This document shows, piece by piece, positions 8,634 to 43,178 of a stretch of DNA of 43,999 nucleotides. The notes under the pieces are model-generated. The model made no database searches and had not been told where the DNA came from. It saw nothing but the letters and a program-made list of their open reading frames with translations. A program made the position numbers and the translations under genes. Source of the DNA: a virus; IMG/VR virus record IMGVR_UViG_3300005731_000007, positions 1 through 43,999 of that record; one strand, written 5' to 3'. How positions within the stretch are numbered: position 1 is the stretch's first letter; the number at the start of each line of letters is the position of its first letter.

Positions 8634-8634
8634 G

Positions 8635-8868
8635 ATGCCACGTGAAACACTGAGAGATAGAGTCTACCGTCAGAAACTGAAAGACAGTGGGTATAATGAA
8701 CAAACCCACCCACCTATGTTTGAAGGCGGTATGCATATTAGGAATGTAGGCTTCAAAGATAACAACCCATTCCCCGGCCCCGGTAAGACAACCGGAGGGA
8801 AGACAGTGACTAAGAAGAACACACGTAAAGCACCTAAACTTGCTAAACCTAAGAAGCGTAAGAAGTAA
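8635..8868 (+). CDS. Small basic protein, unknown
   Basis: A 77-residue protein between portal and scaffold. The middle is rich in Gly and Pro (NNPFPGPGKTTGGK) and the last 25 residues are strongly basic (KKNTRKAPKLAKPKKRKK), so it may bind DNA or the inner capsid surface. It starts one base after the portal stop, and its final base overlaps the next gene's ATG. A minor head component is possible. I do not recognise a family. Confidence 0.7.
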   Translation: MPRETLRDRVYRQKLKDSGYNEQTHPPMFEGGMHIRNVGFKDNNPFPGPGKTTGGKTVTKKNTRKAPKLAKPKKRKK

Positions 8869-9098
8869 TGAACGTCAATTGGCTAGCAGGACATAAGGAC
8901 AAAGAGAAGAGAAAGAAGCAGGTACTGACGTATAAACCTGTTCTTGACGACTTGATCTCAGTCATAGAGAAGTCAGTCAAGAAGAAAGATAATGTTAGGG
9001 ACTATGATAAGCCTAACTGGGAGCTACGTCAAATAGCAGTCAATGAGTACAACCAAGCTCTATCTGACTTAATTGAATTAATCAAACTAAAGGAATAA
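8868..9098 (+). CDS. Small helical protein, unknown
   Basis: A 76-residue charged protein predicted to be mostly alpha helical, with a Lys-rich start (HKDKEKRKKQ) and a helix at the end (ALSDLIELIKLKE). The ATG overlaps the last base of the previous stop codon, which indicates translational coupling. Its place before the scaffold suggests a head-assembly role, but no domain is recognised. Confidence 0.7.
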   Translation: MNVNWLAGHKDKEKRKKQVLTYKPVLDDLISVIEKSVKKKDNVRDYDKPNWELRQIAVNEYNQALSDLIELIKLKE

Positions 9099-15274: not shown

Positions 15275-15572
15275 GAGTAAGAGAATTAGATTAGTAGAGA
15301 CTACTACTTACGGTATAGACCTAGAGTATAATGATGACTTTGCTATCTTACATATTCCTTATGTCAATAAGTTCAATAGAACAGTCCTAGCTGATATGGT
15401 CCTTAAACTTGAAGACTTAGGTGACTTCATAAACTGTATGGGATACCCGAGGATTCACTTAGGTATTCCTACTACAGACATCACAACACAGAAGCTAGCC
15501 CTAAGGCTAAACTTTGAACTCAAGGGTGAGAGCCAAGGCTTTAGCATCTACGAGTTATGGGTAGGAGATTAA
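15252..15572 (+). CDS. Small protein with GNAT-like C-terminus
   Basis: A 106-residue protein, start inside the end of the tail tube B gene (23-base overlap). The C-terminal half (GIPTTDITTQKLALRLNFEL) resembles the last helix-strand unit of GNAT acetyltransferases, but the acetyl-CoA loop (Q/R-x-x-G-x-G/A) is not visible, so catalysis is doubtful. Similar small GNAT-fold proteins are encoded between tail tube B and internal core genes in some podoviruses, where they may be minor virion or assembly proteins. Confidence 0.45.
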   Translation: MEETPAIKSKRIRLVETTTYGIDLEYNDDFAILHIPYVNKFNRTVLADMVLKLEDLGDFINCMGYPRIHLGIPTTDITTQKLALRLNFELKGESQGFSIYELWVGD

Positions 15573-15575
15573 AGT

Positions 15576-16031
15576 ATGCCACAGATTGCACTAGTAGCAG
15601 GAGCTGTAGCCTCAGTAGTAGGAACAGTAGCCTCTTACTCACAACAACGTAAAGCCTCTCGTCTGTCTCAACAACAGCAGGCTGTAGCTACACGCCGCAG
15701 TCAACGTCAGGCTATCAGAGCTTCTCAAATCAGACGTGCTCAGTCAGTAGCCTCAGCTCAAGCTGGAGGTTCTCTTGAGAGTTCAGGAGCTAAGGGAGGT
15801 ATCGGTGCTCTCAGTTCTCAACTAGGTGAACAACTAGGTTTCTCCACTCAAATGTCAGGACTCTCCCAAGAGATCGGTAGTGCCCAGAGTAGTGCTAGAT
15901 TGTTCGGTGATGTAGCTGGCCTAGGTCAACTAGGTGTACGCTATGGTGTAAGCAAAGGGGCTACCCTAGGTGGTTTCTGGGATTCCATCCAACCTAATAA
16001 GGCTCCTCTCTCTGGAGGTGGTGGCAAGTAA
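15576..16031 (+). CDS. Internal virion protein, gp14-like
   Basis: A 151-residue protein with an N-terminal hydrophobic helix (IALVAGAVASVVGTVASY) followed by a long Gln-, Ala- and Arg-rich helix (SQQRKASRLSQQQQAVATRR). This is the layout of T7 gp14, the inner core protein that forms the outer-membrane pore during DNA ejection. The order gp12-like, gp14-like, then two very large core proteins matches the T7 arrangement. Its stop overlaps the next ATG (TAATGG). Confidence 0.7.
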   Translation: MPQIALVAGAVASVVGTVASYSQQRKASRLSQQQQAVATRRSQRQAIRASQIRRAQSVASAQAGGSLESSGAKGGIGALSSQLGEQLGFSTQMSGLSQEIGSAQSSARLFGDVAGLGQLGVRYGVSKGATLGGFWDSIQPNKAPLSGGGGK

Positions 16032-30883: not shown

Positions 30884-31145
30884 CAGTACTGTCCTTATCT
30901 TTAAGATACGTTACACCCTTCTTAGGCCACACCCAACCACCTTTGTGAAAAAAGATGAGCAAAGAAGGAATTGCGCAAGGCCAGATGAGAGAGGTCGTAA
31001 TGTGAAGGACCCAAGGTACCCTGTACTCATAACCCCCTTTGTACATGAGGGCATCATAATCCTCCACACTATCCCCGTGCTCATACCCAACGGAGAACAC
31101 GAAGAAGATTGCAACAGAGGTTAGATACAACAAAATCAATCCCAC
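30876..31145 (-). CDS. Small two-helix membrane protein
   Basis: An 89-residue protein with two hydrophobic spans: about 3-20 (LILLYLTSVAIFFVFSV) and 46-66 (LHITTSLIWPCAIPSLLIFF). A basic C-terminal tail follows. It overlaps the nuclease gene downstream and the SSB gene upstream. The function is unknown; membrane proteins of this size in phage early regions may affect superinfection or host membrane potential. Confidence 0.65.
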   Translation of the reverse strand: MGLILLYLTSVAIFFVFSVGYEHGDSVEDYDALMYKGGYEYRVPWVLHITTSLIWPCAIPSLLIFFHKGGWVWPKKGVTYLKDKDSTDG

Positions 31146-31633
31146 AGTTCATCACCCTCCTTCTTCTCTTTAACTTCTACATGATCCAAGACTTTCACTG
31201 ACTCCAAGCGAGTGCCGGGGTTGTACTTAGTATCATAGACAGACACTTCAACTTGAACAGTAGAACCATTACCGATAGGACCATCATCCTCAAAGGACCA
31301 AGGAGAACCATCAGCCTTAGTAACCTTAGGTGCACCTGATGCGAAGTCTAGAATCTTACCGCCTTTACCTTTCTTCTCATGCTCTCGACGGAAGCGTACA
31401 ATGTCGCGTCCTTCATCATCGAACTTAGAGTTCTTAGCTGCCACTGAGCCTGACATCTTAAGTGTCTTGTAGTCAGCATCAGACATAGTAAGCATTAGAG
31501 AGTAGACACCATTACATGGGGAAGGTGCAGTGAATGCTTGATCTTCTTCACTCCAAGCTTTCATGTCTCGGTTGTCTTCGAAGACCTTAGCCCAGTTACA
31601 GACACCAGTGAATGAATAAGTTTTAGTTGCCAT
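31136..31633 (-). CDS. Single-stranded DNA-binding protein, T7 gp2.5-like
   Basis: A 165-residue SSB. The start at 31633 is chosen because AGGAG lies 10 bases upstream. The pattern is an OB-fold (beta-rich residues 1-145 with KTYSFTGVCNWAKVF at the start) followed by an acidic tail with a terminal aromatic residue (EVKEKKEGDELWD). The tail with a terminal aromatic residue is how T7 gp2.5 contacts polymerase and helicase. It is the first recognisable gene after the promoter at 31790-31818, so it may be expressed independently and highly. Confidence 0.78.
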   Translation of the reverse strand: MATKTYSFTGVCNWAKVFEDNRDMKAWSEEDQAFTAPSPCNGVYSLMLTMSDADYKTLKMSGSVAAKNSKFDDEGRDIVRFRREHEKKGKGGKILDFASGAPKVTKADGSPWSFEDDGPIGNGSTVQVEVSVYDTKYNPGTRLESVKVLDHVEVKEKKEGDELWD

Positions 31634-31754
31634 TGTAAATATTCTCCTCATCAATGGACATTAGATAATCATAGTGACACTCATGTACCTCATAGTCATC
31701 TATAAGAAACATGTAATCACCTTCTTTATTTATATAATAATCTAGAGTAGTGAT
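31623..31754 (-). CDS. Possible small leader gene before SSB, non-standard start
   Basis: A frame that reads like protein (YYINKEGDYMFLIDDYEVHE, ending DEENIYNGN) runs from about 31754 to the TAA at 31623, overlapping the SSB start by 11 bases. A clean AAGGAG lies exactly 8 bases upstream of an ATC codon at 31754-31752, the same spacer used by many genes here, but ATC is a very rare initiator. The first ATG is at 31712 (29 residues, AAGG 7 bases before it). The gene is probable; the start is open. Confidence 0.4.
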   Translation of the reverse strand: MTTLDYYINKEGDYMFLIDDYEVHECHYDYLMSIDEENIYNGN

Positions 31755-31831: not shown

Positions 31832-32092
31832 TTATGTTAAGAATTCTCCGGGGAGGATCATCTCAATCTTCGCATCTTCCTTCTCTCTTAACCACCAATG
31901 ATCTACTCCCTTAAGTAACGTAAGCCATTGTGTAGAATAAGGAACTAGAGGGGGCTTACCGCTGTCTTCACACCTTATAACGTGGACATACTCTCCGTTC
32001 TCCTTTTCTCTCGTCATCCACATATACTCGGGCCACTCCACATACTCTTTTGTCTTTTTATATACGTAACTCTGTTGTCTACTCTTCTTCAT
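31832..32092 (-). CDS. PEF1: small protein with C-terminal LPGEFLT tail
   Basis: An 86-residue protein, the leftmost of 13 small proteins that share a C-terminal tail of the form hydrophobic-Pro-x-Glu/Asp-Phe-hydrophobic-acidic. The body is rich in Trp, Tyr and Lys (KKSRQQSYVYKKTKEYVEW). AAGGAG lies 8 bases before the ATG. It is followed by non-coding DNA and the SSB promoter, so its tail cannot serve as a ribosome site for a next gene; the Glu is coded GAA. It shares no domain I recognise. Function is unknown. Confidence 0.8.
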   Translation of the reverse strand: MKKSRQQSYVYKKTKEYVEWPEYMWMTREKENGEYVHVIRCEDSGKPPLVPYSTQWLTLLKGVDHWWLREKEDAKIEMILPGEFLT

Positions 32093-32105
32093 ATGTTAAT
32101 CTCCT

Positions 32106-32291
32106 TTACTCTAGAAATTCAATAGGACAATAAACCTTATGTTCTAGCTGGCTCCTCAAATCTCCTTCAGTCCAAGGAGACTTAGACTTAGACTGAGGGT
32201 TAAAGAACATCCTCATCCTACCTTCTTCAAAGACCATAAAGAGGTTTGACCCCTCTCTCTTCACAATACCTAAGTTCTTCATCCGGTCCAT
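32106..32291 (-). CDS. PEF2: small protein with C-terminal CPIEFLE tail
   Basis: A 61-residue protein directly behind the polymerase gene. GGAG in the last codons of that gene lies 9 bases before this ATG. The body has a beta-like start (GSNLFMVFEEGRMRMFF) and a short Ser/Lys linker. The ribosome site of the next gene (PEF1) lies after the stop codon, so the tail here is conserved without any ribosome-site role. Confidence 0.8.
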   Translation of the reverse strand: MDRMKNLGIVKREGSNLFMVFEEGRMRMFFNPQSKSKSPWTEGDLRSQLEHKVYCPIEFLE

Positions 32292-33320
32292 TCAGTGGGT
32301 CTCCTTCCAATTCTTCCCAATTCTATAGTCACCTGTTAGATCACAGAACATACCAAACTTCTTACCTACTTCAGTAAGAGATTGACACATAAGCTCACCA
32401 ATCTTCTCAGCCTCCTCATAGGTAGGACATTCTACTTGCCACTCATCATGTACTAGGTCGACCAATCTAAACCTAATGTTCTTTGCCTTAGCTTCTCTGG
32501 TCCACCACACTGTAGCGTGTTTCATGATAGTGCTCTCAGCATTCTGTAGGTAGCCAGCCAACATAAGGTGTTCACTATTACATGGTACCCTACGTCCATC
32601 CACTCCTTCGAACCAACCTCTTTTAGCATCCCTAGGTATCCTCCACTCCTTAAGCTTCTTCAACTCAGGGAGAGCCTTAAGGAAGTTAGCCTCAGCCTGT
32701 TTAGCTTGAGCAACTGAACACCTTAGGATAGCTGCAATCTTAGGTAGCCCAGCACCTAGAAGCCATGCATAGATGAATGTCTTAGCATCGTCTCTAGTAC
32801 GACAGATAGGTCCTAGTGCTTTCTTATTCAGGTTATGGATGTCAGTCTCTAACTCTTTAACACCTGACAAGATAGCATCTCTATAGTCTTCTGACTCCAT
32901 GTAGTGAGCAAGGACACGTAGTTGGATACCTTCAGCATCAGCACCTACTAAGTAATGTTCAGTCTTAAAGAGAGCCCTTAGTTTGTCATCATACTTATAC
33001 TTAACCTCTTCAACTGCTGATGTAGGTGGGATAGGATTACCATGTTTATCCTTAGGCCAACAGGCTGGGATGTTAGCTTGGTTAGGCGAGGAGTGAGACA
33101 TCCTATGTGTCCATGCACCTATATGCCAGAACTTACCGTGTATCCTACCATCGTCAGAGACACAGCCTAACCACTCCTCAAGGCTGCTACGCCTACCTTC
33201 TAGGGTCAACCACTTGGCTAGGTCTCTAGCTGCGTCAGGGGCTGTAGGAGGGAGTGTCTTAAGGTTCTCCTCTGAACACTTCCAACCGTACCTCTTGTAA
33301 TGTTCAATGTCTCTGATCAT
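32292..33320 (-). CDS. DNA polymerase A, polymerase-domain half
   Basis: A 342-residue family A polymerase domain, without the exonuclease. Motif A is GADAEGIQLRVLAHY (about residues 124-138), motif B RDDAKTFIYAWLLGAG (about 174-189), motif C VHDEWQVEC (about 288-296). The N-terminus (ERLEW-type: YGWKCSEENLKTLP) continues where the exonuclease half at 36382-37251 stops, so one T7 gp5-like enzyme is split in two. E. coli position 762 is Tyr, but position 766, normally Tyr, is Leu, and the Gly after 762 is Ala. The start is ATGATC, 8 bases after AGGGAG which lies in the tail codons of PEF3. Confidence 0.9.
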   Translation of the reverse strand: MIRDIEHYKRYGWKCSEENLKTLPPTAPDAARDLAKWLTLEGRRSSLEEWLGCVSDDGRIHGKFWHIGAWTHRMSHSSPNQANIPACWPKDKHGNPIPPTSAVEEVKYKYDDKLRALFKTEHYLVGADAEGIQLRVLAHYMESEDYRDAILSGVKELETDIHNLNKKALGPICRTRDDAKTFIYAWLLGAGLPKIAAILRCSVAQAKQAEANFLKALPELKKLKEWRIPRDAKRGWFEGVDGRRVPCNSEHLMLAGYLQNAESTIMKHATVWWTREAKAKNIRFRLVDLVHDEWQVECPTYEEAEKIGELMCQSLTEVGKKFGMFCDLTGDYRIGKNWKETH

Positions 33321-33499
33321 TCAAAGAACTCCCTTGGGAAGTGTCTTGCGCTCTTGTACTCTAATCTTTCCTCCAACACAAACCTGCTTACAGTGAAATG
33401 ATGACCAGAGTCTAGCCGCCGCCCTTTCATAGTGTTAATGTCTATAACAGCCGTTAGAGGGGTGCCATTCCTATCTTCTAACTCATAAAACAGCATCAT
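33317..33499 (-). CDS. PEF3: small protein with C-terminal FPREFFE tail
   Basis: A 60-residue protein just before the polymerase half. The start MMLFYELEDRNGTPLTAV is beta-like. The codons of its tail carry AGGGAG, exactly 8 bases before the polymerase ATG, and stop and start overlap (ATGA). Its own ribosome site, AGGGAG, is 12 bases upstream of ATG 33499, rather far. Function is unknown. Confidence 0.8.
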   Translation of the reverse strand: MMLFYELEDRNGTPLTAVIDINTMKGRRLDSGHHFTVSRFVLEERLEYKSARHFPREFFE

Positions 33500-33508
33500 T
33501 AGATTTCT

Positions 33509-33700
33509 CTACTCCCTCTCATCTTTACTCTCCTCATCCTTCTTATCAGAATAATCTCTCAACCTATCTTCCTTATGAAGCTCATGTATAGTCCTATCTT
33601 CAAAGATAGTATCTGATATAGATTGTCTACACTCACCACAATAGTAGTCACCATAGACCTTGACTACATTGTACTTAGAATTACATGCTCGACATCTCAT
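33509..33700 (-). CDS. Zinc-ribbon protein
   Basis: A 63-residue protein. The start at 33700 is chosen because its ATG overlaps the stop of PEF4 and because GGAGGA lies 9 bases upstream. It has a four-Cys zinc ribbon (C-x2-C at residues 3-6, MRCRACNSKY, and C-x2-C at about 20-23, YYCGEC). A charged acidic tail follows (DKKDEESKDERE). It lacks the PEF tail although it lies within the group. A small DNA- or RNA-polymerase-binding role is possible. Confidence 0.75.
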   Translation of the reverse strand: MRCRACNSKYNVVKVYGDYYCGECRQSISDTIFEDRTIHELHKEDRLRDYSDKKDEESKDERE

Positions 33701-33909
33701 TCTAGAAATTCCTCCGGTACTAGTAGGCACTTAAGGTCTTTATTGGCTTCAGCTCTAAACCATAGACAGGGATCGTCGTAATAGGGCTCACCTAAGTTGA
33801 AGGTATGGCTATGTCCAGTAGACAACCAAGAGAAACAACGGCAGGTATAAGGGCTTTGCCAGATACCTGCTGTGTACTTAGACCCGTCCTCGCAAGTTAC
33901 TGTAGTCAT
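33697..33909 (-). CDS. PEF4: small protein with C-terminal VPEEFLE tail
   Basis: A 70-residue protein with four Cys and several Trp and His (YTCRCFSWLSTGHSH), which may bind metal. The tail codons hold GGAGGA, the ribosome site of the zinc-ribbon gene, with stop and start overlapping. Its own ATG follows GGAG in the tail codons of PEF5 with an 8-base spacer. Confidence 0.8.
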   Translation of the reverse strand: MTTVTCEDGSKYTAGIWQSPYTCRCFSWLSTGHSHTFNLGEPYYDDPCLWFRAEANKDLKCLLVPEEFLE

Positions 33910-34121
33910 TCTAAAAACTCCATAGGTAGTTCCATCCTAGTCTTCTCAGTCATCTTATATGGCCTTTTCCACAAAACAGGGTGGTCTAGAGTTATATTTA
34001 GGAACTCTTTTATACCTCTGTCCTGTGATTTCAGACCTGTTTCTTTATCATAAATGTAGTAGCATCTATAGCCTACCCTATCTGAAGGTCGATACCTATG
34101 TGATAATACATACTTAGGCAT
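33906..34121 (-). CDS. PEF5: small protein with C-terminal LPMEFLE tail
   Basis: A 71-residue, Arg- and Tyr-rich protein (RYRPSDRVGYRCYYIY) with a helix in the middle (KEFLNITLDHPVLW). The tail codons include ATG-GAG, giving GGAG 8 bases before the PEF4 ATG. Its own ribosome site is GGAG in the tail of PEF6, 11 bases upstream. Confidence 0.8.
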   Translation of the reverse strand: MPKYVLSHRYRPSDRVGYRCYYIYDKETGLKSQDRGIKEFLNITLDHPVLWKRPYKMTEKTRMELPMEFLE

Positions 34122-34336
34122 CAGTCAAAGAACTCCGGTGCTATAAAGGATAGGTTTGAAGAAGAACTGGGCCCATTGAAGCTATTAGTGCAAATGTTTT
34201 TTGAGTAGACTCCATGAGCTATGCCCCCTGATTCTCCACTAGGCTTTAATTTTACGCAAGTATTTCCGTTGACTTCGAAATAAACCCCAGCTGGTAGGTC
34301 TAACCATGAGTCATAATCTCCTCCTCTCTTAATCAT
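34121..34336 (-). CDS. PEF6: small protein with C-terminal APEFFD tail
   Basis: A 71-residue protein. The ATG at 34336 is chosen because GGAGG at the end of the helicase gene lies 10 bases upstream; a TTG at 34342 also opens the frame. It is a variant of the tail: Pro sits directly before Glu, so one residue is missing compared with the others, and the end is Asp. The body is Gly- and Ser-rich (GESGGIAHGVYSKN). The tail codons form GGAG for PEF5. Confidence 0.75.
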   Translation of the reverse strand: MIKRGGDYDSWLDLPAGVYFEVNGNTCVKLKPSGESGGIAHGVYSKNICTNSFNGPSSSSNLSFIAPEFFD

Positions 34337-34338
34337 AA

Positions 34339-35919
34339 TCAAAGAACCTCCTTCAATGTGAATGTATCAGGGTCAAACTTAACCTGCCCCGCATATCCTG
34401 TGTAAGATGTAGGTCTGTTCTTCAAGACTGTAAGAGTTGTGATATTCTTAATCTCCTCATCTTCATTCATCTTATCACGAGATAGTTTAATAACTACATG
34501 AGCCCTCTTACTAATCATACGCGAGTCTCGTACTTGTCCATCGTCATTCTCGTGGGCGATAGTGACAATACCAATGTTAAGCTCAGCAGCCAGTCGTGCA
34601 AGCTTAGACGACAAGTCTCTCAATACTGGTTCAACACTCTCTCTACTGTCTCCACCATAGGCTAGGTCTTGAATAGGTTCAAAGAATACATACTTACAGC
34701 CACACACTGTAGCTAGGTACCTGATACGGTCAATGATATCTTCAGGATCACTAGTCATAGACAAAGTAAACTGATTGAAGTTCTCGTTATCTGAGAACTC
34801 TTTGATTACTTTCAACACCTCTTCTTCTGGTACTCCATTGTAGGAAGGAAGGAACCTCTGTTGTGGTCTACCTCTAGAGTCTTCAACAAACTCTGAGTCT
34901 TGGATGGTTACATTCTTATCCAGTACATAGGAGACTAAACCAAGAAGCCCTCTCTTCTGTACTTCCTCAAGGTGCATAGTGCCGAAGGGGATTGTAGGGT
35001 AGTCCTTAAGGAGTGTATGCTCAAACATCCTCATCAACTCAGTCTTACCGATACCCTCAGGTGCTTGGATAACTGTGAATGCTGATTGAGCTATGCCTCC
35101 AACCTTATCATCGAACTCTTCGATACCTGTAGGAATCATAGCATACCCTGAACTATCTTTAACAATAGTTTCAAACTGTTCGAAGGTATTGAATATCCAC
35201 TCAGGTGTGTACTTCTTCTTAGTATTCCTCCAAGCCCAGACAAAATCATCGGCATCACCTGACGTGAGGAAGTCATTAGGATCGTTATGTTTAGTTAGAG
35301 GTACACGGTATGTCTTATTAGGGAAGGCACTAGCAATCTTCTCAGCCGCCTCATCCCCAGCCTTATCGTTGTCAGTACATACTACAATACATTCAAAGGA
35401 ATCAAGGTACTCATGACAGTTCTTCAAGAGCTTATGAGATACACCAGCACCGGGGATACCCACCACTGGAAGCTTATGTCCTAACATCTGGTATGCACTA
35501 GGTACATCATCCTCTCCTTCTACGATAGTGATGTACTTAGAAGAACCAGCATTAAATTTGTCCATTCCAAATAGATGGTCGGTAGTAAATCCATAGTTCT
35601 TGGTGAAGTCCTTAGGAAGAATCCTGTACTTACTCTTGTGAGGATAGGGGTATACACGACGAGTAGCCTCCTTAGTTCTGTCATCGTAGGATGTAGTGAT
35701 ACCATAGAACTCTACAGCCTTTTGTTTAATACCACGATAAGGTTCTAGTACTTCAGTGTAACTAGATGTATCAGTTGCCATACTTCTTTCTCCTTTCTTT
35801 TCTTTTGGTTTCTCTCCACACTGGTGACAGTAGTATCCTCCATCATCCCATACTGTGAAGCAACCATGCCCACCACAGTAAGGACAATCAGCATGTGTCT
35901 TAACAGGTTCTTGTTCCAT
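34339..35919 (-). CDS. Helicase-primase, T7 gp4-like
   Basis: A 526-residue bifunctional replication protein. The N-terminal zinc site is CPYCGGHGCF with CHQC (residues 13-40). The TOPRIM primase has VEGEDDVPSAYQ (about 132-143) and CTDNDKAGDEAAEK (about 180-193). The RecA-like helicase has Walker A APEGIGKTELMR (about 283-294), Walker B CKYVFFEPIQD (about 407-417) and an Arg finger region near the C-terminus. It primes and unwinds DNA together with the split polymerase and the SSB. Its start follows GGAG in the tail codons of PEF7 with an 8-base spacer. Confidence 0.92.
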   Translation of the reverse strand: MEQEPVKTHADCPYCGGHGCFTVWDDGGYYCHQCGEKPKEKKGERSMATDTSSYTEVLEPYRGIKQKAVEFYGITTSYDDRTKEATRRVYPYPHKSKYRILPKDFTKNYGFTTDHLFGMDKFNAGSSKYITIVEGEDDVPSAYQMLGHKLPVVGIPGAGVSHKLLKNCHEYLDSFECIVVCTDNDKAGDEAAEKIASAFPNKTYRVPLTKHNDPNDFLTSGDADDFVWAWRNTKKKYTPEWIFNTFEQFETIVKDSSGYAMIPTGIEEFDDKVGGIAQSAFTVIQAPEGIGKTELMRMFEHTLLKDYPTIPFGTMHLEEVQKRGLLGLVSYVLDKNVTIQDSEFVEDSRGRPQQRFLPSYNGVPEEEVLKVIKEFSDNENFNQFTLSMTSDPEDIIDRIRYLATVCGCKYVFFEPIQDLAYGGDSRESVEPVLRDLSSKLARLAAELNIGIVTIAHENDDGQVRDSRMISKRAHVVIKLSRDKMNEDEEIKNITTLTVLKNRPTSYTGYAGQVKFDPDTFTLKEVL

Positions 35920-35924
35920 GTTTA

Positions 35925-36155
35925 TTACTCCATAAACTCATAAGGGACAACTCTCTCTGATCTGTCCCCTTCATACCAACCTTTAACTCTACGGTCTCTA
36001 ATCCAAGGATTCCTTAGGAAGGTGAATTTATTTATGAGTAGATTACCTATGAGTAGACTTGTACTAACTTTTTGATACCTCCAGACATCATCAGATTCAC
36101 TAGTCTCGATTGAGTAGTACTTCCCTGATCTATTAATCATAACCCACTTCATCAT
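35925..36155 (-). CDS. PEF7: small protein with C-terminal VPYEFME tail
   Basis: A 76-residue protein. Its start MMKWVMINRSGKYY is like that of PEF8 after residue 27 (MKWLIVHGGY), which suggests a common origin. The middle is rich in aromatic and basic residues. The last two codons of the tail (ATG-GAG) hold the GGAG used by the helicase-primase, 8 bases before its ATG. Confidence 0.82.
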   Translation of the reverse strand: MMKWVMINRSGKYYSIETSESDDVWRYQKVSTSLLIGNLLINKFTFLRNPWIRDRRVKGWYEGDRSERVVPYEFME

Positions 36156-36385
36156 TCAAAAAACTCCTTGGGCATGTGGAGGTCAGCATCACTAACTTTG
36201 TACTCGCTCGTACTTTTGTAGTCAACGACCTGTCGTAAACAATTCTCTGTCACATCTTTGAAAACATTCCTACAATAACCTCCGTGAACGATAAGCCACT
36301 TCATACTAGGTCTGAGTTCTCTGAGATCACTTTTGATCAGCCCTTTAGTCAACCACAACCCATCATGCATCTTCTTGCTTGTCAT
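36152..36385 (-). CDS. PEF8: small protein with C-terminal MPKEFFE tail
   Basis: A 77-residue protein. The start (AAGGAG 11 bases upstream, in the last codons of the exonuclease gene) gives an extra N-terminal 27 residues before the MKW motif shared with PEF7. The tail codons CCC-AAG-GAG contain AAGGAG, 8 bases before the PEF7 ATG, with overlapping stop and start. Confidence 0.82.
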   Translation of the reverse strand: MTSKKMHDGLWLTKGLIKSDLRELRPSMKWLIVHGGYCRNVFKDVTENCLRQVVDYKSTSEYKVSDADLHMPKEFFE

Positions 36386-37251
36386 CGTACTCTGTGCTCC
36401 TTAAGTTTCTTTAGGTGTCCTTGAGTCTTCTCATGAGGACTCCAGCCTGCATCCCATAGAGCATCAATCCTATCTCTAGGTGAGGCTGCATTAAATTCCT
36501 TGTAGTCATAACAGATTAATTCATCACCTTCAACTAATGTCTTAGGATATTCAGCTAGTGCCTTGATTACATTAGAGTATAGAGAACCATCAGCCTTAGT
36601 TCTGTACTTAATACGCTTAGCCTCTACTAATTTAGAACCGAAGGCAGCTTTAAAAGAGTCTTCTAACTCTTTCTTTTCCTTATTGATTTCAGATAGCAGT
36701 AGCTTAGCCTCAGGTACATCGAAACCAAACCCTGACTTCTGCATCTTGTAGCAGAGGTAGGCCATCTCATGTTCAACAGACATAGCCTCCTCCCACTTAG
36801 GGTCAAAGATTTCTTTCTCGTACATATTGAAGATAGCTTCTAAGACTACAACATCCTGATCACAATAGTCTCCCATCTCTTCAGTGTACGTATCCCAACC
36901 ACCAGTGTAGTCTCCCTTATGAACACCTAGGTGTTGACCTAGTTCTTTCAAAGAGTGAGTCCTGAACTTAGGGTAATTGACTAGTTTACTTACGACTGCT
37001 GTATCAATAACATCTTTATAGTTAATCTCAACACCTGTCAACTCACTAATAGCATGGACATCAAAGTTCAAACCGTTATGAAACACCCACTTGTCAGGTT
37101 TAGTATCCTCTATGTAATCCTCAAAGGCGCTTATATCTGTGAGCCTAGTAAGACTTGATGAACCTAAAAGTTTGCATGAGATACAGTGCATCTTAGTGTA
37201 GTCTAGGCCATCAGTCTCACAGTCAGCTAACAGTATTTTAAGAGGGCTCAT
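36382..37251 (-). CDS. DNA polymerase A, exonuclease-domain half
   Basis: A 289-residue 3'-5' proofreading exonuclease domain plus the beginning of the polymerase thumb. ILLADCETDGLDY (about residues 3-15) is DEDD motif I, VFHNGLNFDVHAI (about 54-66) motif II, and DYCDQDVVVLEAIF (about 134-147) motif III. The last 35 residues (FNAASPRDRIDALWDAGWSP) match the T7 gp5 linker before the thumb, then the frame ends. I choose the ATG at 37251: AAGGAG lies 10 bases before it, but only one base before the ATG at 37260. The two halves probably assemble on the template with the helicase. Confidence 0.9.
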   Translation of the reverse strand: MSPLKILLADCETDGLDYTKMHCISCKLLGSSSLTRLTDISAFEDYIEDTKPDKWVFHNGLNFDVHAISELTGVEINYKDVIDTAVVSKLVNYPKFRTHSLKELGQHLGVHKGDYTGGWDTYTEEMGDYCDQDVVVLEAIFNMYEKEIFDPKWEEAMSVEHEMAYLCYKMQKSGFGFDVPEAKLLLSEINKEKKELEDSFKAAFGSKLVEAKRIKYRTKADGSLYSNVIKALAEYPKTLVEGDELICYDYKEFNAASPRDRIDALWDAGWSPHEKTQGHLKKLKEHRVR

Positions 37252-37492
37252 TAGGTTCATACTCCTTATATTCTACATCAAGGAACTCTAAAGGTAAGAG
37301 GAATTCACCTAAAGTTTCTGGGCGGGTGTCATAGCAGCCTATGCGTATTTGATCTTCACTACAGATTACCACTTCAAGAAAGCTATTGTTATAGTCCACC
37401 TCAAAACCTTCGACTACAGTTAATAGAATATCATAATCCTCCGAACGATACAGTCCAGTCGATCCTCCATTCTTGAATAGTTCTAAACTCAT
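37238..37492 (-). CDS. PEF9: small protein with internal LPLEFLD motif and 12-residue extension
   Basis: An 84-residue protein. The shared motif LPLEFLD is present, but it is not at the end: 12 more residues (VEYKEYEPNEPS) follow and overlap the start of the exonuclease half. The ribosome site AAGGAG for that gene lies in the extension, not in the motif. The read-through looks like loss of the original stop. The body has repeated short beta strands. Confidence 0.78.
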   Translation of the reverse strand: MSLELFKNGGSTGLYRSEDYDILLTVVEGFEVDYNNSFLEVVICSEDQIRIGCYDTRPETLGEFLLPLEFLDVEYKEYEPNEPS

Positions 37493-37498
37493 CTTAAG

Positions 37499-37690
37499 TT
37501 ACTCCATAAATTCTATAGGACATAGAAACTTACCACTGAACTTACGTGTAACTTCCTTGTCCCAACCATGTGACTCCTCAGAGAAGAAGCTGGTCTCCCC
37601 TAGGCTGAGAAAGGGCCCATCTTTAGCAAGCACTACATACTTGCCACCCTTTTTTATAGCCAAAGACTCCAACAGATGCTTCCTTTCCAT
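37499..37690 (-). CDS. PEF10: small protein with C-terminal CPIEFME tail
   Basis: A 63-residue protein after the VWA gene. A clear ribosome site is missing before ATG 37690. AAGGA lies 8 bases before a TTG at codon 7 (37672), so the true start may be MESLAIKKGGKYVV. The last two tail codons (ATG-GAG) provide GGAG for PEF9; the tail Glu is GAA here. Confidence 0.78.
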   Translation of the reverse strand: MERKHLLESLAIKKGGKYVVLAKDGPFLSLGETSFFSEESHGWDKEVTRKFSGKFLCPIEFME

Positions 37691-37708
37691 GTCTAGTCAG
37701 GGCCATAA

Positions 37709-39508
37709 CTACTTCCCTCCGTCTACCAAAAGCTTAGTCAGTTTATTAAAGACAGCTGAACTAAGATCATTAACATTATTAACTACTACATTATCTGAGT
37801 AGATTCTAGCTACTGAACTATCGCAGATACCTATACCGATACACTCAACACCTTTCTTCTTAGCATCTTGAGTTGCAATCTTACAGTGTCTGATAAGTTC
37901 AGAGGTACTAGCATCCCCAGAGTTAACAGGACTCCCATCACTAAGGACGAAGAGTACCTTACGTTGTTCCTGTCTCTTAGTCAAGGCGTTAACTGCATTA
38001 ACAATGAAGTCATAGTCAGAGTTGTTACCTCCAACAGCCTTTGTAATCTGACCGATTGAGGACCTTGCAATACGTAGAGGTGTATCAAAGTCCTTGAAGA
38101 ATACAGTATCAAGAGGTTCAGGGCGGTGATATCCGTACCCTACGTCGTAGTTCCACCGTCTATTACAGAAACCTACAACATTGAAGGTGATACCAGACCC
38201 TGCGAGGCACTCACTCAAAGCTACAACACAGTCGTTAGCAACGTCAGCTTTCCTGCCATACATAGAACCTGACAAGTCAACGAGAATAGTGACAGCTGTG
38301 TCCTCTTCTTCTCTGTCGATACGCTGCTTGAATACTGTACGACTACCAGTGTACGCTGAGACTAGACGTTTACTATCCAAGCGGCCAACCTCACGTCCTG
38401 GGTCCCAGTCTCTTTGTTTCTTAGCGAGGAGTGAACGCTTGAGTTTAGTCTTCATGGTGTTAATATTCCCACTAATCTCAGCTTTCTTAGTGTCGTACTT
38501 AGAGTGGTCAGAAGAGTTGACAATCTTGTGAAGTTCGCCTAACCCTTGATCCGACTCCTTAACTCCTCTCTTATACTCGACATCATTCTTAGTAGACCAT
38601 ACTTTGTACGCCCCCTTAAGATTTCCATTGTTCCCACCGATAGCACCTGATGCGCCATCACCTTGCTCTGCACTATTCAAAGCCTCAGTGTTATCAGCCT
38701 TAGCCCACTGAGGTTCACCTTCTCCTTCTTTACCCTGACCTTGGTTAGAATCAAAAGGGTTACCTTCCTGTCCCTTACCTTTAGCCTGAGCTTTCTTGTA
38801 CTCCTCTGAGTTATCTCCTTCACCCATGTCCTCACCGGCTTGAGGATCAAAGTCTTCAGGAGACTGCTGCATCTCAGGGTCTTCCTCAAGAAGTTTGTAT
38901 ACACTCTTAGCTAGAGTAATAACTTCTTCCGAGTTCTCACATTTGATAGCATGTTCAACCCAACCACGTACATGATCTTGAAACTCTTCAGGTACTTGGT
39001 CGATAAGTTTCTTCATGTTGTCACCTGAGTTACCTTCGTAACCTACAGATGAGATACCATTACATACTGAACCATGATTAAAGGTCCCCCAATCAGTATC
39101 CTTACCCCACTCGTCAGCATTGGTCGAGGCAATCAACTCATTAAGCTGCCAAAGATTCTTACGAGTACCAGCGTACTCATCCATAACCTTAGCCTCCATC
39201 CAGTGATCTTCTAGACAGTTATGGATATCTCTTAGAGCAGCTTTATCATTGTTCTGACACCGATCATAGAACTCAATGACTCTAGGCATATCACTGTGAC
39301 GAATGTGTCCAGCCTCATGGTCTACGTAGCCACGCATAGCTCTTACCTGTGCGTTACTTAGGTTACCTGAAGTGGGTAGGGCTGGGAGATTGATTACCTT
39401 ACCATCAGTGTAAGCCTGATCTCCTTCGAACTGTACTTGGATGTCATGTTTACGGCCAAAGGTCGAGGCAGTACTCCGCATCTCATACATGAACTCATGT
39501 ACTTTCAT
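37709..39508 (-). CDS. CobT-like VWA-domain protein
   Basis: A 599-residue protein with an N-terminal segment carrying H64-E-A-G-H68, a zinc-protease-like HExxH motif also seen in CobT-like phage proteins. A long, acidic, Gly/Gln-rich linker covers about residues 220-300. A C-terminal VWA domain follows with MIDAS DLSGSMYG (about residue 405) and LSDGSPVNSGDA (about 530). MoxR/CobS ATPases act with such VWA proteins to insert metals or remodel proteins. The partner gene is 39930-41537, separated by PEF11 and PEF12. AAGGAG lies 8 bases before the ATG. Confidence 0.82.
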   Translation of the reverse strand: MKVHEFMYEMRSTASTFGRKHDIQVQFEGDQAYTDGKVINLPALPTSGNLSNAQVRAMRGYVDHEAGHIRHSDMPRVIEFYDRCQNNDKAALRDIHNCLEDHWMEAKVMDEYAGTRKNLWQLNELIASTNADEWGKDTDWGTFNHGSVCNGISSVGYEGNSGDNMKKLIDQVPEEFQDHVRGWVEHAIKCENSEEVITLAKSVYKLLEEDPEMQQSPEDFDPQAGEDMGEGDNSEEYKKAQAKGKGQEGNPFDSNQGQGKEGEGEPQWAKADNTEALNSAEQGDGASGAIGGNNGNLKGAYKVWSTKNDVEYKRGVKESDQGLGELHKIVNSSDHSKYDTKKAEISGNINTMKTKLKRSLLAKKQRDWDPGREVGRLDSKRLVSAYTGSRTVFKQRIDREEEDTAVTILVDLSGSMYGRKADVANDCVVALSECLAGSGITFNVVGFCNRRWNYDVGYGYHRPEPLDTVFFKDFDTPLRIARSSIGQITKAVGGNNSDYDFIVNAVNALTKRQEQRKVLFVLSDGSPVNSGDASTSELIRHCKIATQDAKKKGVECIGIGICDSSVARIYSDNVVVNNVNDLSSAVFNKLTKLLVDGGK

Positions 39509-39536
39509 TTCTTTCTCTCCTTAATTAATGTTAAGA

Positions 39537-39731
39537 CTACTCTAAGAAATCCCAAGGAATACTAAGTGTCTTAAGTTTCCTAATACAGTCAGGATTATCA
39601 TTGACATGCCACATGATAGAAAAAGTATGGCCAACAAGAGCTTCTGACACCCGCACCCAGTACCAGCCGTAGTCTTCATGGATAGTCACCCACCCATCAT
39701 TAGTCACATACAAACCATCTCTTAGTTTCAC
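39537..39731 (-). CDS. PEF11: small protein with C-terminal IPWDFLE tail
   Basis: A 64-residue protein, start GTG with AAGGAG 8 bases upstream inside the tail codons of PEF12. It is rich in Trp (five, for example EDYGWYWVRVSE). The tail has Asp in place of Glu and Trp at the variable position, and its codons contain no ribosome site; the AAGGAG of the VWA gene lies after the stop. Confidence 0.8.
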   Translation of the reverse strand: MKLRDGLYVTNDGWVTIHEDYGWYWVRVSEALVGHTFSIMWHVNDNPDCIRKLKTLSIPWDFLE

Positions 39732-39925
39732 TTGAAGAACTCCTTAGGTAGACAGATACTGATACGCTTAGCTGGTATGACTTGATACGTTAAACCTTCT
39801 TGGAGATAATTTAAGAGGTCCAACCAACCATGCGTAGAAGAAAAGGACATGATTGTCCCTTCCTTTCCTTTTCTAGTCTGGCTTAAACCATGGCTATAGA
39901 TTACGAACTTATCTCTATAACCCAT
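39728..39925 (-). CDS. PEF12: small protein with C-terminal LPKEFFK tail
   Basis: A 65-residue, Lys- and Gly-rich protein immediately behind the MoxR-like ATPase gene. The tail ends in Lys rather than Glu. AAG-GAG in the tail gives the ribosome site for the GTG start of PEF11. Its own start codon has only AAGG very close to it, so coupling to the ATPase gene is likely. Confidence 0.8.
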   Translation of the reverse strand: MGYRDKFVIYSHGLSQTRKGKEGTIMSFSSTHGWLDLLNYLQEGLTYQVIPAKRISICLPKEFFK

Positions 39926-39929
39926 AACC

Positions 39930-41537
39930 TTAAGCCACTCTGTCTACGATACCTGTCAGGTGAGAACGATCATCCTCGTTAGCCTTGTCAAGACATGACA
40001 TCTTAACAGCTTCCTTGAAACTACCCAGAACCAAGGTACCTTGAGCCAAGGCAAGCATACCACGAGGGGAGATAGGCTGAGTAATGTCCTGCTGTTCGAA
40101 GGATGCAAGGTGTTCAGTTGTATACTTACAAATCTTCTTAAGGTCTTCATCCTTAAGCATAGGATAGTGACGAGCTACCAAGTTCTCACGTTCCTGCTCA
40201 GTCAGGTACCCAACCTTACACCATACTGTGAAGCGGTCAAGGAGAGCAAGAGACTGAGGGCGAGCACCTTGATACATACCATGTTCATCTCCTTGCCCTA
40301 CTGTGTTACCCGTTGCAAACATACGCATGTTAGGATCAGGTTTAACAAGACGATCACCATCCTCAGTGATACGGAGACCATTACCTTCCAGAGCTGACTG
40401 CATAACATATGCTACATCAGGGCGAACGAAGTCAATCTCATCACAGCAGAGGATGCAAGGCATAGACATAGCACGAGGAAGCATACCATCAATAAAGGAA
40501 GAGACAGTGTTACCTTTATCATCAGTGGTAAGAACATCACGACCAATCAAGTCCATACGTGTAATCTCAGAGTCGAAGTTGATACGTACAAAGGGGTAGT
40601 TCAGGTGTGCACAGACTTGTTCAATGAGAGTTGTCTTACCTGAACCTGTGTGTCCTTGGAGGTAGGCACGTTCATTAGTCACGATAGCATAGAGTACACG
40701 AGACAGCAGGTCAGCACGGAAGATGTAGTGCTCATCCACTTTAGGTACATTAGGGTGAGGACCATCCCACTCCCAGTAAGGCACCTCAAAGTTAAGGGCT
40801 ACGTCTACGTTAGGGAAGAGATCAGATACATTCTTATGTACCAGCTTGCCATTAGGGATAGACCCATCACCTTCAACCTCGACCTCAGCTGTACCAGATG
40901 CTAGACTCTTGAGCGTGAGAGTGGTAAGCTCAGCACTAAGACGTTCAACCTCAGCTTCAGCTTGAGTCTGTGCCTTAAGAGCAGCCTTAGCTTTCTTGCC
41001 TTGTTCATTAGCCTCAACTTCTGCCTTACCTACACCTGAGATAATCTCCTCAATAGAGGGTAGTTTCTCACTAGCCAAGAGAGTGTCAATAGCTGTCTTC
41101 GAAGCACCTTCAGGCACAACAAGAGAACCCATGCTGGTCTCTACCACGTGAACACCTCCTACTTCAACAAGAATCTTCTGGGCTTCACGCCACTTATTAA
41201 CTGTCTCTTTCGTAGGTCCGAAGACAAACTCATACTTACTCAACTTAGCTTTGGACTTAGTTCCTACTTGGTCAAGTAGGTCGTGGGGAGTAGCCACTCC
41301 AGCCATCATAGCTACTACATCTCCGAAGTAAAAGGTGGAGAGAGTCTTGTAAAGTGTGAGTTTAGATGCAGCCTCAAACTCTTCCTTATGGCCGAGCTCA
41401 GTGAGGTATCGTTTAGCTGAGTGAAGGGCCTTGCTACGCTCAATCTCAACGAATGGTTCCAAGCCTTCCTCCGCTGGGTCCCACTGTACATGCTGGAAGA
41501 ACTCACGTTGGTACTGTTTAATAGTTTCTTTATTCAT
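39930..41537 (-). CDS. MoxR/CobS-like AAA+ ATPase
   Basis: A 535-residue ATPase with a helical N-terminal half (about 1-215, coiled coil around 165-205) and an AAA+ domain. Walker A is QGHTGSGKTTLIEQ (about 295), Walker B PCILCCDEIDF (about 358), sensor 1 MFATGNTVG (about 405), and sensor 2 in the region ISPRGMLAL. CobS-type ATPases drive cobalt insertion in B12 synthesis with CobT, but phage versions may instead be protein-remodelling chaperones. Together with the VWA gene downstream it forms a two-part machine. It has a weak ribosome site (AGGAAAAGAAG). Confidence 0.85.
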   Translation of the reverse strand: MNKETIKQYQREFFQHVQWDPAEEGLEPFVEIERSKALHSAKRYLTELGHKEEFEAASKLTLYKTLSTFYFGDVVAMMAGVATPHDLLDQVGTKSKAKLSKYEFVFGPTKETVNKWREAQKILVEVGGVHVVETSMGSLVVPEGASKTAIDTLLASEKLPSIEEIISGVGKAEVEANEQGKKAKAALKAQTQAEAEVERLSAELTTLTLKSLASGTAEVEVEGDGSIPNGKLVHKNVSDLFPNVDVALNFEVPYWEWDGPHPNVPKVDEHYIFRADLLSRVLYAIVTNERAYLQGHTGSGKTTLIEQVCAHLNYPFVRINFDSEITRMDLIGRDVLTTDDKGNTVSSFIDGMLPRAMSMPCILCCDEIDFVRPDVAYVMQSALEGNGLRITEDGDRLVKPDPNMRMFATGNTVGQGDEHGMYQGARPQSLALLDRFTVWCKVGYLTEQERENLVARHYPMLKDEDLKKICKYTTEHLASFEQQDITQPISPRGMLALAQGTLVLGSFKEAVKMSCLDKANEDDRSHLTGIVDRVA

Positions 41538-41907
41538 CTTCTTTTCCTTTTGTTCCTTGTAGGAGGTACTTCTCCAGAGAAATAGTTTCTTCTTCGGTCA
41601 GCTCTACCCTAGCTTGAGAGGGGTAAAAGGACAGAGCCTTCAGTCTTTCCAGTGTCTCTTTGAGTTCTTCCTCTTTCACCCAGATTTTATGTAGCCGTTC
41701 ATCAAAGTACTCATCTCCTTCCCCTACTTCTCTATTTGAATACTTAACGTACAACCAAGGGAAGATGTAAGACTTACGGTATCGTTCCTTATCTAAGTAC
41801 TCTAGACGTTCCTCCCTCATTTCTCCTAGTTGAGTTTCAAGGGAGAATCTCTTGACTTCTAAGGCATCAACAATCTGGGCTACCGTATAATGACGAGGCA
41901 ACCTCAT
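41530..41907 (-). CDS. Unknown 125-residue helical protein
   Basis: Rich in Glu, Arg and Tyr. A helix covers residues about 10-40 (QIVDALEVKRFSLETQLGEM), then a second helical part (EEELKETLERLKALSF). It overlaps the start of the ATPase gene by 8 bases. No family is recognised. It may be a partner of the ATPase by context only. Confidence 0.65.
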   Translation of the reverse strand: MRLPRHYTVAQIVDALEVKRFSLETQLGEMREERLEYLDKERYRKSYIFPWLYVKYSNREVGEGDEYFDERLHKIWVKEEELKETLERLKALSFYPSQARVELTEEETISLEKYLLQGTKGKEDE

Positions 41908-41908
41908 C

Positions 41909-42166
41909 TTAGTTATCCTCTTGTTTGTCAGTTGTAGGTGTCAAGTTGAAACCCATAGTAGTCTTGCTGTCAGTGGTGCTGTCGTCTAGTCCACTGTCAT
42001 TAGGTTGAACACTAGCGAAGGCTAGAGACATCTGATCCATAGCCCCTTTAGCTCCTGTCTCCAAGCCCTTACGGTACCATGAGTAGTGGGTGCTAACCCT
42101 AGCTAGACTACCTATGAGGTACCCAAGAAGGAACACCCCAATCATTCCAAAGATAATCATATTCAT
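41909..42166 (-). CDS. Small single-span membrane protein
   Basis: An 85-residue protein with one N-terminal membrane helix (MIIFGMIGVFLLGYLIGSLA, residues about 3-22) and a long polar, Thr- and Asp-rich tail. GGAG lies 7 bases before ATG 42166. Topology is uncertain. Confidence 0.65.
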   Translation of the reverse strand: MNMIIFGMIGVFLLGYLIGSLARVSTHYSWYRKGLETGAKGAMDQMSLAFASVQPNDSGLDDSTTDSKTTMGFNLTPTTDKQEDN

Positions 42167-42300
42167 TTTATTTCTCCTTCAAGACTTGAGATAATCTCAG
42201 TAATAGCTTCGTCGATATAGTTATAATCTTCTTCTGACATTACAGTATCCAAGACCAAAGCCACATCTCTTAGACTCTTAATAATTTCTCCAAGACTCAT
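42163..42300 (-). CDS. Unknown 45-residue acidic helical protein
   Basis: I choose the ATG at 42300 (MSLGEIIKSLRDVALVLDTV) instead of an earlier one, because AGGAG lies 7 bases upstream and because the ATG overlaps the stop of the membrane protein gene. It is mostly helical and acidic. No family is recognised. Confidence 0.6.
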   Translation of the reverse strand: MSLGEIIKSLRDVALVLDTVMSEEDYNYIDEAITEIISSLEGEIK

Positions 42301-42440
42301 TTCACATCTCCTGCAAGTAGCATACTCAAGATGACAGAACCAAAGAAAGCTACACATGCTTCGAGTGAGTCAGTCGTGGCCCATTCGTAAGCCCAAAACA
42401 TAGACACTACGAACCAGATTATATATAGAATAGTATTCAA
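42297..42440 (-). CDS. Very small two-span membrane protein
   Basis: A 47-residue frame starting at TTG 42440, which lies 8 bases after AAGGAG, the same spacer as elsewhere here. Two hydrophobic stretches are visible: about 2-18 (NTILYIIWFVVSMFWAY) and 29-42 (ACVAFFGSVILSML). It overlaps both neighbours by four bases (TGTTGA, AAATGA). A second ATG at 42447 lies only 1 base after the ribosome site and gives a short peptide, so it is rejected. Confidence 0.55.
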   Translation of the reverse strand: MNTILYIIWFVVSMFWAYEWATTDSLEACVAFFGSVILSMLLAGDVK

Positions 42441-42553
42441 CAGTCATACTCCTTATCTTTCAAACGACTCTTAAGGAAAGATACCTCTTTCTTTAGGTCT
42501 TCAACCTCAGCTTTAAGAGTCTTTACTTCTTCTTCTAGTAGTTGTTGCTTCAC
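42437..42553 (-). CDS. 38-residue coiled-coil peptide
   Basis: A 38-residue frame starting with GTG 42553, 9 bases after AAGGAG. Its middle is an almost ideal heptad coiled coil (LLEEEVKTLKAEVEDLKKEV). The codons AAG-GAG near its end form the ribosome site for the membrane protein that follows. Confidence 0.55.
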   Translation of the reverse strand: MKQQLLEEEVKTLKAEVEDLKKEVSFLKSRLKDKEYDC

Positions 42554-42579
42554 GTCGTTTCACTCCTTGTAATTCTATG

Positions 42580-42828
42580 TTATCTAAAGAACTCAGTTGG
42601 AAGCCAGATTTTTAAACCTTCAGCATTTTTAGCTTCTGAACAGTCAGCTAGGCAACTAGTTTCATCTAGGTGTTCCAAGAAGAGAGAAAGGTTAGATTCA
42701 AACCCTTCTCTAGAGCACCATCCAATAAGGACTTGACCTTTGTTTCCTAGAAGATCGAAGTCTTCCTCACTGTTAGAAAAGGAAGACCACTCAGCCTCTC
42801 CTAAAAAGCCTTCGTTCTCCCTGCTCAT
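42580..42828 (-). CDS. PEF13: small protein with C-terminal LPTEFFR tail
   Basis: An 82-residue protein from the ATG at 42828, whose ATGA overlaps the stop of the upstream gene; TTG 42855 and ATG 42843 also open the frame. The first 25 residues are charged, acidic and Ser-rich (ENEGFLGEAEWSSFSNSEED). It is the most distant member, about 2.7 kb from PEF12, and its tail ends in Arg. Tail codons have no ribosome-site function: the next gene uses AAGGAG placed after the stop. Confidence 0.75.
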   Translation of the reverse strand: MSRENEGFLGEAEWSSFSNSEEDFDLLGNKGQVLIGWCSREGFESNLSLFLEHLDETSCLADCSEAKNAEGLKIWLPTEFFR

Positions 42829-43178
42829 AGGTCTGTCAACCATGTGTGTACCCAAATCTTATCAGGGAAATAACCCCAAGAGTTCAGAGTCTTAGTCAAG
42901 AGATGAGTATCAACCTCATTCCCTTCACGTACCTGATTCTCTACACTCTTGTAGTCTCTGTCCTTCACAAAGGCACGAGCTAGGTGCAAGTACCTCTGCT
43001 CAATACGAAGAGACATACGAGTAGCGTACATAGTCTTACGTTCATCATCGAAGTAAGGATAGTTAGAGGTACGTTTACCTTCAGCCTTCTTAGCTTTACG
43101 TTTACACCGTTCCTCTTGCTTACGAAGGACACGTTGACACTGAGTATTAGTCAGGTATGCAAGTTTCATTTGAATCAT
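42825..43178 (-). CDS. Unknown 117-residue basic protein
   Basis: A Lys/Arg-rich protein (VLRKQEERCKRKAKKAEGKR), with a helix around 55-75 and an aromatic C-terminus (YFPDKIWVHTWLTDL). GGAG lies 7 bases before ATG 43178, which overlaps the stop of the upstream gene. It may bind nucleic acid; no family is recognised. Confidence 0.65.
   Translation of the reverse strand: MIQMKLAYLTNTQCQRVLRKQEERCKRKAKKAEGKRTSNYPYFDDERKTMYATRMSLRIEQRYLHLARAFVKDRDYKSVENQVREGNEVDTHLLTKTLNSWGYFPDKIWVHTWLTDL

Follow-up and report, generated by a model that had tools for sequence, protein, structure and literature searches.

Here, we analysed the IMG/VR virus record IMGVR_UViG_3300005731_000007, whose entire sequence of 43,999 bases is referred to as the window in the following. 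The window is the 44 kb genome of a Cobavirinae-like phage (Zobellviridae) of what is called the marine type, and the closest named relative found was phage T5S1-k141_653015 (PQ867845.1; Zobellviridae, Cobavirinae). Dispersed among its early genes are thirteen small genes, PEF1 to PEF13, encoding proteins with hypervariable bodies of uncertain fold and a nearly constant C-terminal tail of about seven residues. Analysis of these genes and of their counterparts in related virus contigs demonstrates that the common tail is a real, protein-level feature of a genome-wide repertoire and more than the curiosity of a single phage.

Thirteen small genes with a common tail

The PEF genes are minus-strand open reading frames (ORFs) between positions 31832 and 42855, and their products end in the pattern phi-P-x-[E/D]-F-[L/F/M]-x, in which phi is a hydrophobic residue; PEF6 and PEF9 are exceptions. 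A preliminary description of the window had reported the thirteen ORFs and their near-identical tails at 31832-42828. Position and tails were found as described, and the interval should be extended to about 42855. Most PEF genes have a Shine-Dalgarno sequence, and they are arranged head to tail with frequent ATGA overlaps. PEF3 (60 aa, tail FPREFFE; 33317-33499, like all following on the minus strand) carries a Shine-Dalgarno sequence within its tail codons and forms an ATGA overlap with the polymerase gene. PEF4 (70 aa, VPEEFLE; 33697-33909) overlaps the start of a zinc-ribbon gene, PEF5 (71 aa, LPMEFLE; 33906-34121) that of PEF4, PEF8 (77 aa, MPKEFFE; 36152-36385) that of PEF7 (76 aa, VPYEFME; 35925-36155, upstream of the primase/helicase gene), and PEF12 (65 aa, LPKEFFK; 39728-39925) that of PEF11 (64 aa, IPWDFLE; 39537-39731). 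The two exceptions had also been noted before: in PEF6 (71 aa from its most likely start, the ATG at 34336; IAPEFFD; 34121-34336) the proline stands one position later, immediately before the glutamate, and in PEF9 (84 aa; 37238-37492), which overlaps the start of the polymerase's exonuclease gene, the motif LPLEFLD is followed by 12 further residues. In PEF10 (63 aa, CPIEFME; 37499-37690), the Shine-Dalgarno sequence lies at the stop codon and the following start 9 bases past it. The tail of PEF1 (86 aa, LPGEFLT; 31832-32092), which occupies the gap between the genes of the polymerase and the single-stranded DNA-binding (ssb)-like protein, sets no following start. A separate Shine-Dalgarno sequence is located downstream of PEF2 (61 aa, CPIEFLE; 32106-32291), PEF11 and PEF13 (up to 91 aa, LPTEFFR; 42580-42855). 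The start of PEF13 is uncertain, with weak signals at a TTG (42855) or an ATG (42843).

The strict tail pattern occurs in 11 of the 49 small minus-strand genes predicted, whereas 2000 shuffles of the residues averaged 0.003 matches and never exceeded 1, and ORFs on the opposite strand gave no tail match in the first 83 loci. Selection on the tail acts on amino acids, since bases 1 and 2 of its proline and phenylalanine codons are fixed while base 3 varies: phenylalanine alternates between TTT and TTC, and the entropy of the third proline base amounts to 1.57 bits in the window, 1.4-1.75 bits in five of six other genomes with a proline-containing tail and 0.92 bits in the contig L228. At the same time, in 5 of the 10 window members scored and in most members of the related contigs L001 and L151, the codons of the variable residue and glutamate yield GGAG or AGGA upstream of the stop, at a distance of 13-14 bases, and the next start lies at -1. 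The tail thereby doubles as ribosome site of the next gene, and one could argue that it is a mere by-product of DNA-level selection for a translational-coupling cassette of Shine-Dalgarno sequence and ATGA. However, PEF1, PEF2, PEF11 and PEF13 retain the tail although it places no start, and in PEF7, as in PEF10, the Shine-Dalgarno sequence coincides with the stop codon. In addition, the glutamate is encoded by GAA in four members, the aspartate of PEF11 by GAT, and neither the proline nor the hydrophobic residue preceding it has any role in a Shine-Dalgarno sequence. DNA-level conservation tied to a following start, as a ribosome-binding-site artefact would display, was not found. The codon data thus largely refute an explanation at the DNA level only, which we consider very improbable.

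Genome-specific tails and hypervariable bodies

Searches with polymerase, primase, CobT and CobS as queries provided related virus contigs. Several of them carry more than one identifier (L002/L084/L085/L226; L004/L151/L169/L229; L011/L097/L170/L228; L013/L173/L277; L083/L088; L003/L172/L227; L110/L171/L237). The relatives harbour 4-17 dispersed small genes with a common tail in matching gaps, and each genome has its own version of it. PxEF[LFM]x is found in the window, L001 (16 genes) and L002 (10-12 genes), PxEYphi-x in L151/L004 (13-17 genes), IPKEYT in L173, VPxEML at the extreme C-terminus in L228, GPxExxxW in L231 and FPMEFLI in L088. Looser sets are present in L003 (PKEFLRC), L010 (LPLEFIT), L012 (LPSKYL), L110 (IPKELT) and L230 (CLVKW). 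To assess the tails without a predefined motif, we counted residue pairs at C-terminal positions of all predicted genes in loci of at least 8 kb. This unsupervised test returned corrected p values of 4e-29 for L151, 5e-21 for L001, 2e-18 for L002, 9e-14 for the window, 1e-12 for L173, 2e-8 for L228, 2e-7 for L231 and 1e-5 for L088, as well as 3e-9 for the unrelated contig L225 with the tail WF, while N-terminal and internal control positions gave nothing. L003, L010, L012, L110 and L230 fail this strict test, and their tail counts derive from pattern and position.

Beyond the tail, the proteins of one phage have hardly anything in common. Within phages, identity is 0.46-0.81 for the tails and 0.17-0.22 for the bodies, the latter being about the value of shuffled bodies; between phages, tail identity is 0.42. 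Bodies encoded in the same gap of the window, L001 and L002 are no closer to each other than bodies from different gaps (scores of 22.8 and 22.2, respectively), unlike the polymerases of the window and L002, which are 75% identical. Recent duplication or gene conversion could in principle keep tails alike without any function, and body similarity is indeed detectable in a few pairs within genomes. Since silent positions of the tail codons differ, recent copying as DNA does not account for the tails. Bodies that within a phage resemble each other no more than shuffled sequence argue against such copying as well, as do same-gap bodies of related phages, which are no closer to each other than the rest. 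We hence regard this explanation, which the codon data disfavour, as the most improbable one.

The tails change together across the copies of a genome while the bodies share almost nothing, as would be expected with a common receptor, and we consider it probable that the tail serves for shared docking. This takes up the suggestion of the preliminary description that the tail docks varied bodies to one partner. The docking part of it gained from the retention of the tail within each related genome, its concerted change between genomes and the selection on amino acids. The contrary pattern, conserved DNA near ribosome sites without a conserved protein tail, was not encountered, although in many members tail codons still double as Shine-Dalgarno sequences. 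The diversity of the bodies needs to be qualified, as these may belong to one extremely diverged family rather than being unrelated proteins. Body pairs with z > 4 account for 1.3% between phages and 2.6% within phages, compared to 0.4% for reversed bodies, and a pattern GLY..Y..W, which is partly driven by the tail, is common to iterative profiles; a faint common ancestry of the bodies thus remains in the sequences.

Such an ancestry would fit an explanation without docking, in which the tail forms the last structural piece of a small fold shared by the proteins, e.g. the end phi-P-x-x-[FY]-phi of an SH3-like barrel. Besides the body similarity above chance and the GLY..Y..W pattern, this idea draws on the AlphaFold2 model of PEF11, which is all-beta, with five short strands and a closing turn formed by the tail, and on the LPSKYL-type tails of L012, which resemble SH3 ends. 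That model is of low confidence (predicted local distance difference test score (pLDDT) 66, predicted template modelling score 0.42), and a low-confidence model of a second member with the tail APKEML (pLDDT 59) has a disordered end. Searches of PDB sequences and Foldseek searches yielded no match for PEF proteins. Neither did Pfam and PHROG profiles match significantly (10 window and 40 family members; best E values of 0.02-0.3 in single members). Since the tails vary in concert per genome on bodies unlike one another, and since the tails of L225 follow linkers on unlike proteins, a purely structural role appears unlikely to us. The body of about 50-70 residues probably forms a small beta-rich domain.

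CobS and CobT as candidate partners

The gaps filled by PEF genes separate the genes of the early arm, which were named from homology and gene order and encode CobS, CobT, a split DNA polymerase, a primase/helicase and an ssb-like protein. The order is CobS-[12,11]-CobT-[10,9]-exo-[8,7]-primase-[6,5,4, zinc ribbon, 3]-pol-[2,1]-ssb, with PEF genes given by their numbers and PEF13 located upstream. CobS and CobT are thus encoded amid PEF genes. CobS (39930-41537, minus strand; 535 aa) is a MoxR-clade AAA+ ATPase according to Pfam AAA_5 (E 2e-16) and alignment. CobT (37709-39508, minus strand; 599 aa; Pfam CobT_C, E 1e-25) is a von Willebrand factor A (VWA) protein with a metal ion-dependent adhesion site (MIDAS), the residues of which (DxSxS and SDG) are invariant across nine relatives. 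Two minus-strand genes, one for the polymerase part (32292-33320) and one for the exonuclease part (36382-37260), together encode the split T7-type DNA polymerase, and the primase/helicase and seven small genes lie between them; L012 and L029 are among the relatives with a single polymerase gene. The zinc-ribbon protein (MRCRACNSKYN...; 33509-33730, minus strand), encoded amid PEF genes between primase and polymerase, lacks the tail, and a similar small gene is present at this gap in L001 and L151. The ssb-like protein (31136-31654, minus strand) ends in GDELWD, in place of the IPF or VPF that terminates its homologues in L003, L010, L011 and L012.

In Cobavirus-like phages, presence of the tails goes along with presence of CobS and CobT, which, like the phage-specific version of the tail, was missing from the preliminary description. 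Common tails were found in all seven complete or long Cobavirus-like genomes with CobT (the window, PQ867845, G001, G002, G003, G005 and G010) and in none of ten relatives that share the replisome but lack CobT (G020, G021, G022, G023, G025, SIO1, ICBM1, CRP-4, CRP-6 and CRP-13); for some of these records a stretch rather than the whole record was examined. Apart from a single truncated contig, CobS/CobT are encoded in all long contigs that have such tails. Moreover, all top shared C-terminal motifs of the unsupervised test (corrected p < 1e-4) occur in contigs bearing CobS/CobT. The tail itself was absent from ORFs of at least 140 aa in the Cobavirus-like phages checked, including CobS and CobT.

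The tail could also dock to another partner, i.e. to a different early phage protein such as the primase/helicase, the split polymerase or the ssb-like protein, or to a host protein. Genes with the tail are interleaved with all replication genes and not solely with CobS and CobT, and docking via C-terminal tails is known from the replication proteins gp2.5 and gp4 of phage T7. A shared tail is missing, however, from phages that lack CobS/CobT but possess related primase, exonuclease, polymerase and ssb, and we therefore rate another partner as rather unlikely, even if it is the alternative we take most seriously.

Common C-termini at other MoxR-VWA loci

A parallel was provided by L225 (IMGVR_UViG_3300022696_000130), which encodes a remote CobT and seven proteins that differ in size and fold but end in WF (e.g. 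those encoded at 8190-9050 and 15456-15764). Among them are an SH3_15-domain protein (E 5e-8) and a DUF3150 protein (E 2e-73), the gene of the latter lying between the MoxR and CobT genes. The tails are attached via linkers, and no relatives of L225 were found among viral contigs. DUF3150 is a marker of MoxR-DUF3150-VWA operons on integrative and conjugative elements (ICEs) and plasmids. At such loci (L309, L311, L313, L310, L329, L367, L371, L372 and L377; plasmids, chromosomal or ICE loci), a common, element-specific aromatic C-terminus (e.g. SFYF, EDHFF, LVFDF or MVF) is found on DUF3150, on a lambda-type exonuclease and on some small neighbouring proteins, at times on Bet as well: SFYF/SFYF at an ICE-like locus, FF/YW/YY/HFF on an IncC plasmid, VFDF/VWDF in Geobacter and MVF/VVF/IVF in Citrobacter. 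In all 26 dereplicated loci, the terminal residue of DUF3150 is F, W or Y, while MoxR and VWA proteins of the same loci have no shared end. The last four residues of exonuclease and DUF3150 score a mean BLOSUM of 9.3, compared to -5.7 for internal positions and 6.4 with loci exchanged (p = 0.004); p values were 0.06 for the end of Bet and 0.04 for that of p302 (n = 5). None of eight phage exonuclease homologues chosen as controls from phages without the triad, whose absence was taken from a DUF3150 search of the phage collection, carries this tail. DUF3150 keeps its aromatic end even at loci without recombination genes, which also speaks against a partner other than the MoxR-VWA complex. In the literature, we found no description of shared aromatic ends at these loci. 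By analogy, the parallel supports the principle of common tails around MoxR/VWA machines, but not homology.

A receptor in the MoxR-VWA complex would agree with the distribution among phages and with the retention of the DUF3150 tail, the third component of the bacterial triad, where recombination genes are missing; CobS/CobT are the best single candidate. We propose that the PEF genes encode a set of small proteins that change very rapidly, and that the tag would plug every PEF protein into the phage's own CobS-CobT complex as common partner. The variable body, as its rate of turnover suggests, would recruit or block something else, such as host or defence proteins, and the motor would remodel whatever a body brings. 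We assign a probability of about 45% to this proposal as a whole. The window encodes the same AAA+/VWA pair as CbbQO, NorQD, RavA-ViaA, Rea1 and viral CobST. In CbbQO, the VWA protein uses its MIDAS site to recognise an acidic residue in the client (PMC4660213), the same has been proposed for NorD (PMC13036017), and a role in cobalamin synthesis was proposed for viral CobST (PMC8651126); by analogy, the tail glutamate would suit the MIDAS site. An invariant glutamate as MIDAS ligand was considered and appeared attractive, but it is not universal across tail types. None of the described MoxR/VWA pairs comes with a dozen small proteins bearing one C-terminal tag, and literature searches returned no description of such tails. 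The MoxR-vWA ternary conflict systems with effector-associated domains likewise combine a constant coupling module, variable proteins and an AAA+/VWA core, but couple through homotypic pairing of a whole domain with a copy on a core component (PMC7159879). The window has MoxR and a MIDAS-bearing VWA protein in the same region as well, whereas coupling would rely on a seven-residue tail without a copy on CobS or CobT; such a copy on a core component is present only in L225, where it is the WF end of DUF3150. Another short hydrophobic tag for docking at the extreme C-terminus is that of the single-stranded DNA-binding protein SSB (DDDIPF type), and at the MoxR-DUF3150-VWA loci acidic residues likewise precede the aromatic end. 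Whereas SSB is a single protein that serves many partners, numerous PEF proteins have one tail, which contains neither an acidic run ending in a hydrophobic residue and Pro-Phe nor a terminal phenylalanine, as a residue follows the final hydrophobic one.

Several observations weigh against CobS/CobT as the partner. The co-occurrence of CobT and tails is confounded by ancestry, as the tailed phages form one broad clade, and most distant CobS/CobT phages searched, including CRP-810, have no common tail, L225 being the exception. In L009 (1-5239), a Cobavirus-like fragment of 5.2 kb, no small genes lie between those of CobT, exonuclease, primase and polymerase, which makes it a natural counter-example to a link between CobT and tails, and L010 has tails without CobT, although this contig stops at the expected position of CobS/CobT. 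L230 lacks the tail glutamate that could serve a MIDAS site, and this residue is inconstant in L012, L083 and L110. Finally, the parallel at MoxR-DUF3150-VWA loci was found post hoc, and its aromatic tail is unlike PxEF.

If the tails plug into CobS/CobT, they would name the clients of that complex. The finding would then reveal a modular adaptor principle in phages, akin to the F-box-type adaptors of eukaryotic ubiquitin ligases, which are not homologous and likewise combine a constant docking piece with a fast-changing recognition part, and would explain part of the uncharacterised phage mini-ORFs. A common tail within one genome could serve as a handle for spotting such systems elsewhere, including widespread ICEs and IncC plasmids. 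Tentatively, and with more doubt than for the proposal above, phages and the MoxR-VWA loci of ICEs and plasmids might both use element-specific tags to plug many variable proteins into an AAA+/VWA machine, which in Cobavirus-like phages would be equipped with about 10-17 hypervariable mini-adaptors aimed at differing host or defence targets.

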